DNA of 64,000 nt, from positions 1-64,000 of the forward strand of contig SVGM01000001.1 of assembly GCA_015056365.1 (NCBI GenBank), given 5' to 3'. Below are positions 9,971 to 31,737 of this stretch, in pieces. The notes under the pieces are model-generated. The model was not told where the DNA came from. It searched no databases and saw only the letters and a list, made by a program, of their open reading frames with translations. How positions within the stretch are numbered: the stretch's first letter is position 1; every line of letters starts with the position of its first letter. The position numbers and the translations under genes are program-made. The DNA is from Clostridiales bacterium. Its GTDB lineage: Bacteria; Bacillota; Clostridia; Christensenellales; Aristaeellaceae.

Positions 9971-10040
9971 GTTCATCGCTCCTTTATTCGTATCGTTCTC
10001 TATCCCAAGGGGGCTGCGGCGTCAATGCGCCCGCGCCGCC

Positions 10041-11204
10041 TTATTTGAGCTGATCCAGAAAGCTTTCCGCGTCGAAGCGTTCCTCAAGGCCGAAATTCTC
10101 CGCAATGGTAGCGGCAATATCGGCATAGGTAGCGCGGGTGCCGATGCTGCGCCTACCCTGCATGGCGCGGGTGTAGCACAGAATGGGAATGTACTCGCGG
10201 GTATGATCGGTGCCGGTGTGAACCGGGTCACAGCCATGATCGGCTGTGAGGATCAGCAGATCCTCATCGCCCAGAGTGTCCAGGATCTCCTTCAGCCTGC
10301 CATCGAAATACCGCAGCGCATCCGCGTAGCCCTTTACATCCCGTCGGTGGCCGTAGGAGGAATCAAAGTCCACCAGATTAACAAAAACCAGACCTTCAAA
10401 TTCCTGCTTCATGGCTTCCAGCGTGGCGTCGATGCAGGCGGGATTGCCAGCCGCGTGGTCGCTCTTCCGAAGGCCGCGCATACAGAAAATGTCCTCGATC
10501 TTGCCGATGCCCATGGTGAAGAAACCCATCTCCTGCAGAGCATCCAAAAGGGTGCGTGCCGTGGGCTCCAGGGAAAAATCGCGGCGGTTGCCCGTACGGG
10601 TGAAGCCTCCCTTTTCCTTGCCTACGAAGGGACGGGCAATAACGCGGCCCACAGCATGCTCGCCTGTGAGAATGGCCCGCGCCTTCTCGCACATTTCGTA
10701 GAGTTTCTGCGGGGGATAAATCTCTTCGTGGCAGGCGATCTGGAACACGCTGTCGCCGGAGGTGTACACAATGGGATATCCGGTACGGATGTGCTCCTCG
10801 CCCAGTTCGTCCAGAACAGCCGTACCGCTGGCAGGACGATTGCACAGCGTTTTGGTGCCGATGGCCGCTTCAAAAGCGTCCATCACTTCCGGCGGGAATC
10901 CTTCCGGGTAGAGCGGGAAGGGCTTATCCAACTTGATACCCATCAGTTCCCAATGACCAGTGGTGGTATCCTTGCCGGCGGAGCGCTCCATGGCACGTCC
11001 ATATACGCCCGCGCCATCCGTGGGCACGGGATAGCCGAGCCCTTCGATGCAGCCAAGTCCCATGGCTTCCATGTTGGGCAGGGCGGGCGCTTCCTTCTCC
11101 CAGATATGTCCCAGCGTATTGGCACCTGCGTCACCGTAGGCAGCAGCGTCCGGCAAAGCGCCAGCGCCCACGCTGTCCAGCACAATCAAAAACACTCTCT
11201 TCAT
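10041..11204 (-). CDS. deoB: Phosphopentomutase
   Basis: A 387-residue Mn-dependent alkaline-phosphatase-superfamily enzyme that converts ribose-1-phosphate and deoxyribose-1-phosphate to the 5-phosphates. The N-terminal metal site VLDSVGAGALPD, the catalytic Thr region GKDTTTGHWE, the late DFDSSYGHRRD and the metal-binding ADHGCDP are all present, and the length is normal. ATG 11204 is the only reasonable start, although its GGAGGGG box is a long 11-13 bases away, which suggests modest translation. It is followed by purine nucleoside phosphorylase, forming a nucleoside-salvage pair. Confidence 0.96.
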   Translation of the reverse strand: MKRVFLIVLDSVGAGALPDAAAYGDAGANTLGHIWEKEAPALPNMEAMGLGCIEGLGYPVPTDGAGVYGRAMERSAGKDTTTGHWELMGIKLDKPFPLYPEGFPPEVMDAFEAAIGTKTLCNRPASGTAVLDELGEEHIRTGYPIVYTSGDSVFQIACHEEIYPPQKLYEMCEKARAILTGEHAVGRVIARPFVGKEKGGFTRTGNRRDFSLEPTARTLLDALQEMGFFTMGIGKIEDIFCMRGLRKSDHAAGNPACIDATLEAMKQEFEGLVFVNLVDFDSSYGHRRDVKGYADALRYFDGRLKEILDTLGDEDLLILTADHGCDPVHTGTDHTREYIPILCYTRAMQGRRSIGTRATYADIAATIAENFGLEERFDAESFLDQLK

Positions 11205-27303: not shown

Positions 27304-27376
27304 TCAATCCCATTGCCTGTCACGCCCTTGCACGTGGCAGGCTTTTGTGTTTTCATCGTTCCTTCAAAGGCCGGAA

Positions 27377-27406
27377 TTGACACCGCGTTTATTTTTGCAC
27401 TATAAT
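27377..27406 (+). promoter_or_regulatory. Consensus sigma-A promoter of the aldolase-decarboxylase operon
   Basis: TTGACA (27377-27382), 18 bases, TATAAT (27401-27406), both boxes perfect. The roughly 85-base leader ends in GAGGAG before ATG 27498. Confidence 0.88.
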
Positions 27407-27497: not shown

Positions 27498-29588
27498 ATG
27501 CAGCTCAAACTGATGTACATCACCAACCAGCCGGAAATCGCGCAGATTGCGCAGCAGTGCTCAGTGGATCGGATCTTTGTGGATCTGGAAACGCTGGGCA
27601 AAGAACAGCGTCAGGCTGGCATGAATACAGTCAAATCCATGCACACGATGGAGGACGTTTCCGCCATCCGGCAGGTGCTGACCACGTCCCAGCTTCTGGT
27701 GCGTGTCAATCCGCTGCATGAAGGTTCCCAGCAGGAGATTGATCAGGTGATCAGCCGCGGCGCAGACATTGTGATGCTGCCCATGTTCCGCAGCGCAGAA
27801 GATGCTCGCCGGTTTGTTCACATGGTGAACGGACGTGCAAAAGTCATGCTGCTGTTGGAAAATCGGGAAGCGGAAGCTGCTATTGATGACATTCTGGCCG
27901 TTCCCGGAATAGACGAGATCCATATTGGTCTCAACGACCTGCACCTGTCCCACGGCATGGATTTTATGTTCCAGCCGCTGGCCAATGGCCAGGTGGACAA
28001 GCTGGCCGAAAAAATCAAGGCGAAAGGCATCCCCTTCGGCTTCGGCGGCATCGCCCGTCTGGACGAAGGTATGCTGCCCGCCCGGTTCATCATTGCGGAG
28101 CACCACCGGTTGGGTTCGGAGATGGTCATTCTCTCCCGCAGCTTTTACGACGCGTGGATCAAGCAAGAACCGGACGAGATTCACAAGGTGTTTCAATACG
28201 GTGTCCGGGAGATCCGCGAGTATGAGGAACGCCTGAACCATAAGGATTCGGACTATTTCCAGCGCAATCATCAGGTGGTTGTACGGGAAGTGGAAAAGAT
28301 CGCCGCATCGATACAGGAGAAAAAACGCATGCAAAAGCGCATGACCACGCCCAAGCCCGTGGCGGTGGAACAGCTGGACTACGATACCCTGAACAGGATC
28401 GGGCAAAGCTATGGCGAAACCTTTTATCTGCTGGATACCGACCGGTATGCCTTAAACTTCCGAGAGCTGCATCAGGCGTTCTCCAGCCGCTACGCCAAAT
28501 TCGCCATCGCCTATTCCTACAAGACCAACTACATTCCCGCCATCTGCAAGTGTCTGAATACACTTGGCGGATACGCGGAAGTGGTGTCCCACATGGAGTG
28601 GGAGATCGCCCGCCGCTGTGGCGTACCGGCAGATAAGGTGATTTTCAACGGCCCGTACAAAAATCCTCAAGCAGTAGAAGCATTGCTGGCGGAAGGCGGC
28701 ATCGTCAACGTGGATTCGCTCAGCGAATTGCCGCTACTGGAAACCGTTGCAGCAGCCCATCCCGATAAGAAGCTGCGCATGGGCATCCGGGTGAATTTCG
28801 ACATCGGCGATGGCGTAACGTCCCGTTTCGGCGTAGATGCGGAATCGGATTTCCCCACCGTGCTTAGCTTCATCCAGTCTCATCCCAATATGGTTCTGGC
28901 TTCACTGCAGTGTCATTTTGCCACCCGCAGGCTTGACACCTGGCGCCCCCGTGCGCAGGGCATGCTGGCATTGGTGGACAAATATGGCCTCACGCCGGAA
29001 ATCATCGATCTGGGTGGCGGTCTTTTCGGCAAGATGCACGACAGCCTGAAAGCTCAGTTCTCCTCCCCCATTCCCACCTACGAAGAATATGCGGACGCCG
29101 CAGCCACCGTCTTTGCCGAGCATTACCGCCATACGCCTGAAGCGCTTCGGCCTACTCTGATGATCGAACCGGGCAGTGCTCTCTCCGGCGATGTAATGCA
29201 TTTCGCTTGCAAGGTCAAGAGCATCAAGCAGGTACGAGGGCAGGCCATTGCCACGGTGCTGGGCAGCGTGTACAACATCAACCCCACCTTGAACGGCAAG
29301 AACCCGCCGCTGGAAGTGTTCCACTGCGGTGCGGAAACGGCCGAATATGAAGGACTGCATGTAGGTGGCTTTACCTGCATCGAGTCTGATTACCTCTACA
29401 AAGGCTACACTGGCCCGCTGGCAGAAGGCGACTATCTGCTTTTTGGCAATGTGGGTTCCTACTCGGTGGTTCTGAAGCCGCCCTTCATTCTGCCCAATTT
29501 CGCCGTGGTGGACCGCGCCGGCGGTACGACCTGCCAGGTAAAGCGGCCAGAGGGCTTCGACGACCTGTTTGCTACCTATACCTTCTGA
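27498..29588 (+). CDS. Fusion: HpcH/HpaI-type aldolase plus PLP-dependent decarboxylase
   Basis: One 696-residue open frame holds two enzymes. Residues 1 to about 260 form a class II pyruvate-aldolase (HpcH/HpaI, citrate-lyase-like) domain: Arg69 in LVRVN, metal ligands Glu121 in LLENRE and Asp147 in GLNDL; the HpcH active-site His block is replaced by DLETLG. Residues from about 300 on form a fold-III PLP decarboxylase (DAP/ornithine type): Schiff-base Lys342 in YSYKTN, Gly-rich DLGGGLFG, EPGSALSGD and a late CIESDYLY. The standalone versions resemble SbnG and SbnH of staphyloferrin B synthesis or aldolases of polysaccharide clusters. Product unknown. GAGGAG precedes ATG 27498. Confidence 0.85.
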   Translation: MQLKLMYITNQPEIAQIAQQCSVDRIFVDLETLGKEQRQAGMNTVKSMHTMEDVSAIRQVLTTSQLLVRVNPLHEGSQQEIDQVISRGADIVMLPMFRSAEDARRFVHMVNGRAKVMLLLENREAEAAIDDILAVPGIDEIHIGLNDLHLSHGMDFMFQPLANGQVDKLAEKIKAKGIPFGFGGIARLDEGMLPARFIIAEHHRLGSEMVILSRSFYDAWIKQEPDEIHKVFQYGVREIREYEERLNHKDSDYFQRNHQVVVREVEKIAASIQEKKRMQKRMTTPKPVAVEQLDYDTLNRIGQSYGETFYLLDTDRYALNFRELHQAFSSRYAKFAIAYSYKTNYIPAICKCLNTLGGYAEVVSHMEWEIARRCGVPADKVIFNGPYKNPQAVEALLAEGGIVNVDSLSELPLLETVAAAHPDKKLRMGIRVNFDIGDGVTSRFGVDAESDFPTVLSFIQSHPNMVLASLQCHFATRRLDTWRPRAQGMLALVDKYGLTPEIIDLGGGLFGKMHDSLKAQFSSPIPTYEEYADAAATVFAEHYRHTPEALRPTLMIEPGSALSGDVMHFACKVKSIKQVRGQAIATVLGSVYNINPTLNGKNPPLEVFHCGAETAEYEGLHVGGFTCIESDYLYKGYTGPLAEGDYLLFGNVGSYSVVLKPPFILPNFAVVDRAGGTTCQVKRPEGFDDLFATYTF
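28316..28331 (+). other. Internal RBS and ATG at the domain junction
   Basis: GGAG (28316-28319) stands nine bases before an in-frame ATG (28329) at residue 278 of the fusion, just before the decarboxylase domain. It could allow a free 419-residue decarboxylase. It is weaker than the site in copA. Confidence 0.35.
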
Positions 29589-29628
29589 CCACAAACGCAC
29601 ACCCCAACCTCATAAGGGAGGAACGCTC

Positions 29629-30555
29629 ATGGCTACTGAGGTAAACAACCGTTTCATCTGGCTGAACGGTCAGATACTCAACGTAAACGATGCAAAAATC
29701 AACGTGCTCTCCCCTACCGCCCAGTTCGGACTGAACGTGTTCGAAGGCATCCGCTGCTACTGGAACGATCAAAAGAAGCAGCTGTACGCATTCCGGCTGG
29801 AGGATCACTACCGCCGGTTGGAACGCAGCGCCCGGCTTTTGCAGCTCGACTGCCCCTACACGGTGGCTGATATGCAACAGGCGCTGACGGATGTGGTGAA
29901 AACCAACGAATACAAGGAAGATCTAACTGTCCGCCAAACGTTGTTCGCGGACGGCTTCGGTTCCTGGACCACCCGTATGGAAGTGGGCATGTTTGTGGCC
30001 CCTATCCCCAAGCGGAACACCAGCGCCGAATACAACAAAGCCGGCCTTCGCTGTTGCGTTTCTTCCTGGGAGCGAATCAACGACAACAGCCTTTCTCCGC
30101 GCATCAAGTGCGGCGCCAACTACATCAACAGCCGCATGGCGCAGCTGGAAGCTCTGCGAAACGGCTATGATACCACACTGTTTTTGACCAATCAGGGCAA
30201 GGTGGCTGAAGGCCCCGGTTCCTGCCTGTTCCTGGTCAGGGACGGCATGCTAATCACGCCGCCTATCACCGACAGCGTGCTGGAGAGCATTACCCGGGAC
30301 ACCATCCTGAAACTGGCTGCGCAGCTCGGCATTCCTGCAGTAGAGCGCAGCGTAGACCGCACGGAACTGTATCTTTGCGACGAAGCCTTCCTTTGCGGTT
30401 CCTCCATGGGCATTACCCCCATTACCGCCATTGATGGATATGAGGTCCCCGCCCAGGGCGAAGACGCCGTGACACGCCGTCTCAGCAACGCTTACCACCG
30501 GATCGTCCGGGGCGATGACGACGACTGGAATCACTGGCTGACCCCCATCTGGTAA
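29629..30555 (+). CDS. Class IV aminotransferase (branched-chain type)
   Basis: A 308-residue fold-type IV PLP enzyme, closest by eye to branched-chain aminotransferases (IlvE): FEGIRCYW near the N-terminus, the PLP Lys in IKCGANYINS, and the phosphate-binding EGPGSCLFLV. In this class the residue after the Gly pair is usually Asn, here Cys, so the substrate may differ. GGAGG is seven bases upstream. It lies 40 bases after the fusion gene and before alanine dehydrogenase, which suggests transamination of the aldolase product or of a branched-chain keto acid. Confidence 0.87.
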   Translation: MATEVNNRFIWLNGQILNVNDAKINVLSPTAQFGLNVFEGIRCYWNDQKKQLYAFRLEDHYRRLERSARLLQLDCPYTVADMQQALTDVVKTNEYKEDLTVRQTLFADGFGSWTTRMEVGMFVAPIPKRNTSAEYNKAGLRCCVSSWERINDNSLSPRIKCGANYINSRMAQLEALRNGYDTTLFLTNQGKVAEGPGSCLFLVRDGMLITPPITDSVLESITRDTILKLAAQLGIPAVERSVDRTELYLCDEAFLCGSSMGITPITAIDGYEVPAQGEDAVTRRLSNAYHRIVRGDDDDWNHWLTPIW

Positions 30556-30621
30556 TTGACTGCGTTTTCTTGGCGTTTATTCGCCGTTAACTGATTCTGT
30601 ACACTGAAGGAGAGATGTCCC

Positions 30622-31737
30622 ATGATCATCGGAACCACCAAAGAGTTGAAAAACCACGAGTATCGCGTAGGCCTGATCCCGGACAATGCAGCTGCTTTTG
30701 TTGCAAAAGGGCACACGGTATATGTTGAAACCAACGCCGGCGAAGGCGCAGGCTTCAGCGACGATGAATATCGCAAGGCAGGCGCTACGGTGCTCAGTAC
30801 CGCGGCGGAAGTGTACGCCAAGTGCGACATGATCATCAAGGTCAAAGAACCCGAACCCTGCGAGTACAATCTGCTCAGAGAAAATCAGATTCTCTTTACC
30901 TACCTGCACCTCGCCCCCAACCCCCAGCTCACCGAAGCGCTCATCGCCCGCGGCGTGAAGGCGGTGGCGTACGAGACCATCACCGACAAGGAAGGCAATC
31001 TGCCCTGTCTGCGTCCCATGAGCCAGGTGGCCGGCCGTCTGAGCATTCAGGAAGGTGCCAAGTATCTGGAGCGCAGCTTCGGCGGCCGCGGCCTGCTGCT
31101 GGGCGGCGTGCCGGGCGTTGAGCGCGGCAAGATCGCCATCATCGGCGGCGGCATTGCCGGTACCTACGCTGCCAAGGCTGCTGTGGGTATGGATGCCCAG
31201 GTCACTTTGCTGGACATCAACCTGAACCGTCTGAGCTATCTGGAGGATGTGTTCGGCGCATCCGTGACCACCCTGTACAGCACCGAAGCCAACATCCGCA
31301 AGTGTCTGGCCGAGGCTGATCTTGTGATTGGCTCCGTGCTGATCCCCGGCGGCGCCACCCCCAAGCTGATCCGCCGCGAGCATCTGAAACTGATGAAGAA
31401 GGGCGCTGTCATTGTCGATATCGCCATTGACCAGGGCGGTTGCTGCGAATCCTCCCATACCACCACCCATGACAATCCTGTCTACATTGAAGAAGGCATC
31501 GTTCACTACTGCGTTGGCAATATGCCCGGCGCCGTCCCCTACACCTCCACCATCGCCCTGTCCAACACCACCTTCCGCTATGCCATGCTGATGGCCGACC
31601 ATGGTTTGGAAGCCGCTGCCCGCATGGATGAAGGTCTGGCCAAGGGTATCAACATCTACAACCACAAGTGCACCAACCGCAATGTAGCCGATAGCCTGAA
31701 CCTGGAATTCGTTTCTGCTTTTGACCTGATGGCATGA
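30622..31737 (+). CDS. ald: Alanine dehydrogenase
   Basis: A 371-residue enzyme for the NAD-dependent interconversion of L-alanine with pyruvate and ammonia. The substrate Lys is in [12 protein letters not shown], the catalytic His in TYLHLAP, the NAD-binding motif in [12 protein letters not shown], and [11 protein letters not shown] is the family signature. AAGGAG lies nine bases upstream. Its stop overlaps the comF start (ATGA). Next to a pyruvate-aldolase and an aminotransferase, it may balance pyruvate and amino groups. Confidence 0.96.

Follow-up and report, generated by a model that had tools for sequence, protein, structure and literature searches.

Background

In the HpcH/HpaI aldolases a Glu and an Asp are the metal ligands, an Arg is the substrate residue and the His following the DxE motif is catalytic, and decarboxylases of the alanine-racemase fold usually carry the motif EPGR. 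Small amines destined for glycans are made by the 2-aminoethylphosphonate cassette (PEP mutase, phosphonopyruvate decarboxylase and AEP aminotransferase), in which a bond-forming step yields a 2-oxo acid and a decarboxylase and an aminotransferase then give the amine. FslC, SbnH, AcsE, MccE and BtrK are grouped together among the alanine-racemase-fold decarboxylases in an excerpt of PMC7857480, and an excerpt of PMC10992282 treats aldolases acting on pyruvate and formaldehyde. No description of an aldolase of the kind studied here linked to a phosphoglycosyl transferase (PGT) or to polysaccharides was found in open-licence PMC papers.

The fused gene and its surroundings

The stretch of DNA analysed, hereafter the window, comprises 64,000 nucleotides of contig SVGM01000001.1 from a Clostridiales bacterium, and its relevant features are collected in Table 1. 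A preliminary description of the locus had read an aldolase and a decarboxylase in one continuous chain, and this holds: the ORF is open over all 696 residues, and the same fusion recurs in three further genomes of the genus at 80-81% identity to the window's copy, making 4 of 17, so an assembly error can be dismissed. Pfam places HpcH_HpaI (PF03328) at residues 9-153 (47.3 bits, above the cut-off of 25), Orn_Arg_deC_N at residues 321-563 (86 bits; cut-off 23.4) and an Orn_DAP_Arg_deC match in the same chain (25.3 bits; cut-off 23), and Arg69, Glu121, Asp147 and Lys342 all stand where they had been reported. Among the four fusions dN/dS is about 0.08-0.17 in either half and higher in the linker (dS near 1); both halves are under purifying selection.

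Table 1. Features of the fusion locus, in window coordinates
Feature	Position	Strand	Remarks
Intrinsic-terminator-like hairpin	27315..27342	+	after GH127 gene; 10-pair stem then TTTTGTGTTT
Promoter TTGACA-18-TATAAT	27377..27406	+	12/12 consensus match
Fusion ORF	27498..29588	+	single open ORF, 696 aa; ATG start preceded by GAGGAG
HpcH/HpaI-type aldolase half (residues 1-290)	27498..28367	+	Pfam, hhalign
Fold-III PLP decarboxylase half (residues 291-696)	28368..29588	+	Lys342; Cys627 in TCxExD motif; Pfam
Class IV aminotransferase, IlvE_I type, accessory second copy	29629..30555	+	PRK06606, TIGR01122
Alanine dehydrogenase	30622..31737	+	TIGR00518 480 bits, cut-off 391.85; adjacent, judged outside cassette

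The perfect TTGACA/TATAAT promoter claimed for the fusion is real. It is the sole 12/12 site on either strand of the window, where 0.008 would be expected from base composition, and it is kept at 12/12 in all four fusion-bearing genomes; promoter-like sites in general show no excess in the upstream region (5 vs a shuffle mean of 4.9). The region has more terminator-like sites than its shuffles (26 vs 9.3), and the hairpin sets the GH127 gene apart from the cassette.

For the decarboxylase half the best match among solved structures is 7kh2, the N-citrylornithine decarboxylase FslC (E 1.9e-25 with the fusion, 1.9e-51 with profile A2), and the residues K52, C337, E339 and D341 of P0005 are invariant across nine relatives. 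The fusion stays below both the lysA equivalog TIGR01048 (127.8 bits; cut-off 297.9) and the FslC model NF041039 (95.9 bits; cut-off 500). A better LysA candidate, likewise under the 297.9 cut-off, is found elsewhere in the genome (273.6 bits). The decarboxylase family occurs without the aldolase in 7 of the 9 class genomes that have it.

That a class IV aminotransferase and an alanine dehydrogenase follow the fusion was confirmed for both by profile scores, those of the aminotransferase being 296.8 bits against PRK06606 (cut-off 279) and 269.5 bits against the IlvE_I equivalog TIGR01122 (cut-off 245.55); the genome encodes a separate IlvE_II elsewhere (390.7 bits; cut-off 250.05). An orthologue of the aminotransferase (79-83% identical) is present in exactly the 4 of 17 genus genomes that have the fusion, and at E 1e-15 only two of the other 13 gave any match, at 27-28% identity (Fisher p 0.0004 for co-occurrence, with the relatedness of the genomes uncorrected). 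The alanine dehydrogenase behaves differently: it is present in 10 of the 17 genomes, six of them lacking the fusion, and G013 retains the arrangement GH127-AlaDH-ComF-PyrR without fusion or aminotransferase. On this distribution and the G013 site it was rejected as a fourth step, and its place next to the cassette is judged incidental. Of the pathway that the preliminary description had composed from these neighbours, the linkage of aldolase, aminotransferase and decarboxylase thus stands, and the alanine dehydrogenase drops out.

The aldolase family in other genomes

A search of gene neighbours across genomes found the trio linked in five distant genomes with the decarboxylase as a gene of its own (L025, L051, L084, L100 and L101, five of the 35 loci without fusion), the three genes lying within ~2.1 kb; a PGT adjoins them in four of these loci (all but L101). 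A decarboxylase is present in 9 of the 10 loci with an aminotransferase vs none of the other 29 (p 3.6e-6, the fused group counted once). The tenth, L089, has aldolase and aminotransferase with no decarboxylase within 8 kb, and none was found in its genome (G804) at E 1e-40. Taken together, the three enzymes constitute a genuine cassette.

The aldolase family, A1, matches E. coli YfaU by hhalign with P 97.1 and E 4.9e-11. CitE (citrate lyase) was considered as closer kin and rejected (P 71 over 80 columns vs P 97 over 160), as was a second aldolase of the same kind in the genome, the sole other PF03328 match there being pyruvate kinase. Glu121 and Asp147 are kept in 38/38 family aldolases and Arg69 in 36/38, the other two being gapped there, whereas in the 34 of 38 rows that have a residue there, the position of the YfaU His49 is occupied by T, Y, I, V, F, M or S. 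Of the active site, earlier taken to be intact, the Arg and both metal ligands are in place and the His is not (Thr32 here); since that His is not kept, pyruvate aldol chemistry is not certain.

What had been overlooked is the link of the relatives to surface glycans: a PGT lies within 8 kb of the aldolase in 32 of the 35 loci without fusion, the calls being confirmed as PF02397 in all five loci scanned. PGT and aldolase even form one 487-aa chain in L053, and in L028 the aldolase is fused to a PF13727 domain. No PGT was found within 8 kb of the fusion in any of the four fused loci, and the window's genome has four PGTs outside the window. For this reason the window's copy is not classed as a glycan-cluster gene, and a glycan role of the fusion rests on the relatives; by analogy, we argue that the copy may work as its PGT-linked relatives do.

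The partners near the aldolase vary. Over 39 loci they are a D-2-hydroxyacid dehydrogenase (16), an aminotransferase (10, nine with decarboxylase), Ldh_2 (4) or none (9), and no two of the three classes occur together in any locus; the mutual exclusion of aminotransferase and dehydrogenase has p 0.009 with the fused loci counted once, the calls being made with profiles from seeds in the same loci and checked with Pfam/NCBIfam in some cases. The aldolase tree, 24 of whose 35 branches are unstarred, shows at least seven changes of partner class among labelled rows, and one supported (starred) clade of 7 rows (99/99) contains all three classes. Neighbours belonging to families that act on 2-oxo acids are present in 30 of the 39 loci, and because the partners swap among such families, a 2-oxo acid as the aldolase product is supported.

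The A1 profile found no relatives in viral contigs. The one 'phage' match, MT835705 (L149), was rejected; inspection by eye makes it a bacterial contig, whose ORFs include RimO-, PgsA- and CysS-like ones as well as a PGT and an aldolase. Two plasmid records contain the aldolase at E 1e-15, of which L124 was counted and L125 left out, the annotated genes around the aldolase being nearly the same. Both records label it merely 'aldolase/citrate lyase family protein'.

Proposed role and alternatives

We give about even chances to the view that the three enzymes make a small amine, or its precursor amino acid, for a surface glycan. Judging from its family and partners, the aldolase would join pyruvate or a related 2-oxo acid to an acceptor in a metal-dependent step. 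The IlvE-type aminotransferase would turn the resulting 2-oxo acid into an amino acid, from which, going by the chemistry of its family, the fold-III decarboxylase would strip the carboxylate to leave the amine. In the window's genus the first and last of these steps would reside in one fused chain under its own promoter, and in relatives with a D-2-hydroxyacid dehydrogenase or Ldh_2 partner hydroxy acids would be the outcome. The surface glycan as destination is suggested by the glycan-initiating PGT near most of the relatives' aldolases. A broader proposal, which we make tentatively and hold to be rather doubtful, is that the PGT-linked aldolases are an undescribed family feeding an interchangeable module, in which one 2-oxo acid, arising at the start of surface-glycan synthesis, would be converted by whichever partner is present and end up decorating the glycan as an amine, an amino acid or a hydroxy acid of D or L configuration. 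Because aldol products bear a 4-hydroxyl, the amine of this module would belong to the 3-hydroxyalkylamines (with formaldehyde as acceptor, 3-aminopropanol) and be a non-phosphonate counterpart of aminoethylphosphonate or phosphoethanolamine; the window's fusion would then be the module's most compact form.

Other explanations can be given for the same genes. The fused genus could use these enzymes in this order to make a soluble metabolite (polyamine-like, an osmolyte or a signal), having repurposed a glycan cassette. This would suit the PGT-free surroundings of all four fused loci and the conserved promoter that the fusion has to itself, but four of the five trios with separate decarboxylase stand beside PGTs and this genome has four PGTs elsewhere, and we consider it unlikely. 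It is a little less likely still that the aldolase domain is not a biosynthetic enzyme, but works in the direction of cleavage or now serves glycan initiation as a regulator or scaffold. The lack of the YfaU His across the family could be read in that way, as could the L028 fusion, the PF13727 domain of WbaP being reported in an excerpt of PMC10942596 to bind uridine nucleotides; the family-wide conservation of the Arg and the metal ligands, together with the 30 of 39 loci with neighbours from 2-oxo-acid-acting families, argues against it.

A chance juxtaposition of housekeeping LysA, IlvE and alanine dehydrogenase would account for the scores of the aminotransferase and the alanine dehydrogenase above their respective cut-offs. 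However, a stronger candidate for LysA exists elsewhere in the genome, as does an IlvE_II above its cut-off, and 13 of the 17 genus genomes do without both the fusion and this aminotransferase orthologue, which makes such a coincidence very improbable. Slightly less credible even than this is a siderophore-type pathway like that of staphyloferrin B, with an SbnG-like citrate synthase and an SbnH/FslC-like citryl-amino-acid decarboxylase. The structural match of the decarboxylase to 7kh2 is in its favor, but the FslC model score is far under its cut-off, the aldolase profile has a much stronger match in YfaU (1.1e-8) than in 4tv5, the SbnG structure (0.0019), and the relatives' partners are an aminotransferase or dehydrogenase. 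IucA/IucC-type NIS synthetases were found in 0/17 genus genomes, a control of the same search being positive in 2/14, and on this ground the siderophore pathway was rejected.

If the proposed glycan role is true, it would give a function to a gene that recurs near PGTs and would predict that bacterial surface sugars bear small side chains of a new class, with which hosts, phages and glycan-degrading enzymes would come into contact. The idea is directly testable, since each of its components (standalone aldolase, aminotransferase, fusion) is a single protein.

Comparison with known systems

By profile, the nearest known relative of the aldolase half is YfaU (RhmA), among the HpcH/HpaI class II pyruvate aldolases: Glu48, Arg74, Glu153 and Asp179 of YfaU correspond to Glu31, Arg69, Glu121 and Asp147 here. 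In contrast, His49 of YfaU, next to Glu48, aligns with Thr32, two segments of YfaU, 19 and 9 aligned residues long, have no counterpart, and members of the present family lie near PGTs and occur as fusions with a decarboxylase, with a PGT or with PF13727. The decarboxylase half, whose best structures are FslC (7kh2) and DAP decarboxylases, has Lys342, the Cys627 motif and the Pfam domains in common with LysA and the FslC/SbnH/AcsE/MccE/BtrK group, but the fusion falls under every NCBIfam cut-off listed and has EPGS in the alignment instead of the usual EPGR. The resemblance to SbnG and SbnH of staphyloferrin B pointed out in the preliminary description is correct in that the same two broad families are involved, but it is superficial: no NIS synthetase was found in the 17 genus genomes, and closer relatives are found elsewhere. 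The 2-aminoethylphosphonate cassette, which in L100 lies beside the trio with scores above NCBIfam cut-offs, is alike in its logic, a bond-forming step to a 2-oxo acid followed by aminotransferase and decarboxylase to an amine. It differs in that Pfam lists a PEP_mutase match nowhere in the fusion, and in that the order proposed here would be transamination before decarboxylation.

The fused gene and its neighbours

The window belongs to contig C30 in a genome of 2.6 Mb (30 contigs, 87.9% complete), and the joining of an HpcH/HpaI-type aldolase to a fold-III PLP decarboxylase in one continuous chain, as claimed in the preliminary description, is real: the frame is unbroken, and the same fusion occurs in four of 17 genus genomes, including the window's own, the other three copies being 80-81% identical. 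The residues singled out earlier in both halves are present, as is the perfect promoter reported ahead of the gene. Compared among the four fusions, each half has a dN/dS of about 0.08-0.17, and the linker a higher value. The promoter matches at 12/12 bases with an 18-base spacer upstream of all four, and 0.008 perfect promoters would be expected across the whole window from base composition; promoter-like sites overall show no excess over shuffles.

Features of the fused gene in the window
Feature	Position	Strand	Remarks
Fusion ORF	27498-29588	+	Unbroken, 696 aa
Fusion domains (Pfam)	HpcH_HpaI residues 9-153; Orn_Arg_deC_N residues 321-563		
Promoter TTGACA-18-TATAAT	27377-27406		Perfect; downstream of a terminator-like hairpin that trails the GH127 gene

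The fusion is followed by a class IV aminotransferase (over the IlvE_I cut-offs), an alanine dehydrogenase (over its own cut-off) and two phosphoribosyltransferase-domain genes, by eye ComF-like and PyrR-like. Within the genus, orthologues of the aminotransferase (79-83% identical) are confined to the four genomes that carry the fusion, and further matches at E 1e-15 come only from G487 and G496, at 27-28% identity. Since the window's genome holds a second class IV aminotransferase elsewhere, an IlvE_II, the copy beside the fusion is an accessory one. The alanine dehydrogenase had also been proposed as a pathway member, which the genus argues against: six of its ten carriers among the 17 genomes have no fusion. 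One of these, G013, retains the gene order without either fusion or aminotransferase: GH127 is followed by two unrelated genes and then by alanine dehydrogenase, ComF and PyrR. In the remaining five the dehydrogenase gene stands amid different neighbours; we thus regard it as a neighbour of the fusion.

Aldolase relatives and their partners

Aldolase matches were found in 12/396 order genomes (E 1e-25), 20/391 class genomes and 4/398 phylum genomes (both E 1e-50), in samples that share genomes (G000 is in all three, G159 in two). These, with family-level matches and one plasmid, gave the 39 loci examined, leaving out the surroundings of a partial match (G880) and L125, a near-copy of the L124 region. 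Neighbours were counted up to 8 kb from the aldolase, or over a shorter stretch where the contig ended. A phosphoglycosyl transferase (PGT) is near the aldolase in 32/39 loci, that is, in 32 of the 35 without the fusion and in none of the four with it. A D-2-hydroxyacid dehydrogenase is near in 16/39, a class IV aminotransferase in 10/39 and an Ldh_2 enzyme in 4/39; nine loci have none of these partner types, and none of the 39 has two together within 8 kb. The decarboxylase accompanies nine of the ten aminotransferases and is found in 0/29 other loci. In exact tests that ignore relatedness and count the fused group once, the association of this trio gives p 3.6e-6 and the dehydrogenase-aminotransferase exclusion p 0.009. 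The partner profiles were built from seeds picked in the same loci, so scores of the seeds themselves do not count as evidence. Domain scans confirmed PF02397 in 5/5 PGTs scanned, 2-Hacid_dh domains in the five scanned among the 16 dehydrogenases (L048, L052, L054, L093, L098), Ldh_2 in 4/4, and Aminotran_4 or IlvE models in 9/10 aminotransferases, that of L025 lying outside the scan.

Several other features of these loci were seen. A 516-525-aa protein recurs in 6/39 loci (L028 5893-7464, L048 5853-7403, L094 5556-7133, among others), its L028 copy having a weak Asn_synthase match and no NCBIfam match. In L124 (NZ_CP106737.1), a capsule cluster on a roseobacter plasmid, the aldolase (9986-10807, 42% identity) has asnB on one side and an N-acetylneuraminate synthase family gene on the other. 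PGT and aldolase also adjoin in L149 (MT835705.1), deposited as 'Bacteriophage sp.' and resembling, by eye, a bacterial chromosome fragment.

On a tree of 38 aldolases, from which the truncated one of L030 was omitted, partner class changes at least seven times among labelled rows, and one starred clade (L051, L083, L089, L025, L026, L027 and L028; 99/99) holds all three partner types. Three points tell against full modularity: the labels cluster more than they do after shuffling (12 changes when 'none' is included, against a shuffled mean of 18.9; as low in 0/200), stars fall on only 11/35 inner branches, and the branches of L124 and L101 are long. The three partner families all act on 2-oxo acids, and the simplest reading is therefore that the aldolase product is a 2-oxo acid.

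Trios with a separate decarboxylase

The order aldolase, decarboxylase, PGT, aminotransferase is common to L051, L084 and L100. L025 runs from a 518-aa chain with a C-terminal aldolase domain through decarboxylase and small PGT to aminotransferase; the front of this chain resembles by eye the membrane and nucleotide-binding part of large PGTs, Pfam calling the aldolase only, and a 607-aa relative in L028 carries CoA_binding_3 and HpcH_HpaI. The L101 trio is divergent (41-46% identity) and differently ordered, with no PGT found within 8 kb. L100 also has PEP mutase, phosphonopyruvate decarboxylase and AEP aminotransferase, all over NCBIfam cut-offs; L051 holds a LicD gene and an IspD-type cytidylyltransferase, L089 relatives of both, and L048 and L091 LicD relatives.

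Membrane-domain aldolase genes in L026 (5921-7126) and L030 (9381-10937) are both truncated at one and the same point of the aldolase, following ...GMSFMF, and run on into similar short tails, as if a like insertion had struck the same site. In L026 (8894-10531) a PF13727 domain is fused to a DegT-type aminotransferase, neither PGT nor aldolase, a further example of an enzyme occupying the PGT domain's place.

At E 1e-40 the decarboxylase occurs in 9/391 class genomes: the window's; G517, which has a trio; G835 and G790, where it has ATP-grasp neighbours; and five members of a single genus, with open frames of 641-652 aa. In an example from that genus (L143 8952-10874), the decarboxylase relative shares a 640-aa chain with a cytidylyltransferase domain (PF02348); the gene adjoins NeuB-like (by eye) and ATP-grasp-like genes. 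Two of the nine have the aldolase alongside, so the decarboxylase also exists apart from it. Decarboxylase relatives in L029, L141 and L142 adjoin an ATP-grasp gene (by Pfam in L029 and L141, by similarity in L142), and no aldolase was matched in these genomes at the family-level or class-level (E 1e-50) thresholds. This aminotransferase type was seen solely near the aldolase, in a search begun from aldolase loci and the genus.

Relation to known enzymes

The genetic evidence is good both for a shared pathway and for a glycan context of the aldolase relatives. The glycan reading is weakened most, for this genome, by the distance between the window's own copy and any PGT. The component families are known; their arrangement was not found described within open-licence PMC papers. 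The best solved-structure match of the aldolase profile is YfaU (1.1e-8), the class II pyruvate aldolase of E. coli, and in an hhalign alignment Glu31, Arg69, Glu121 and Asp147 face its Glu48, Arg74, Glu153 and Asp179, whereas His49 of YfaU is replaced by Thr32. Glu121, Asp147 and His202 are present in 38/38 aldolase relatives and Arg69 in 36/38, the other two being gapped. The decarboxylase, which falls under every NCBIfam cut-off listed, has its closest matches in N-citrylornithine decarboxylase and DAP decarboxylases. In PMC7857480, FigC/FslC, SbnH, AcsE, MccE and BtrK are grouped together, and since several of these act on conjugated amino acids, a conjugated amino acid is, by analogy, a possible substrate of the decarboxylase.
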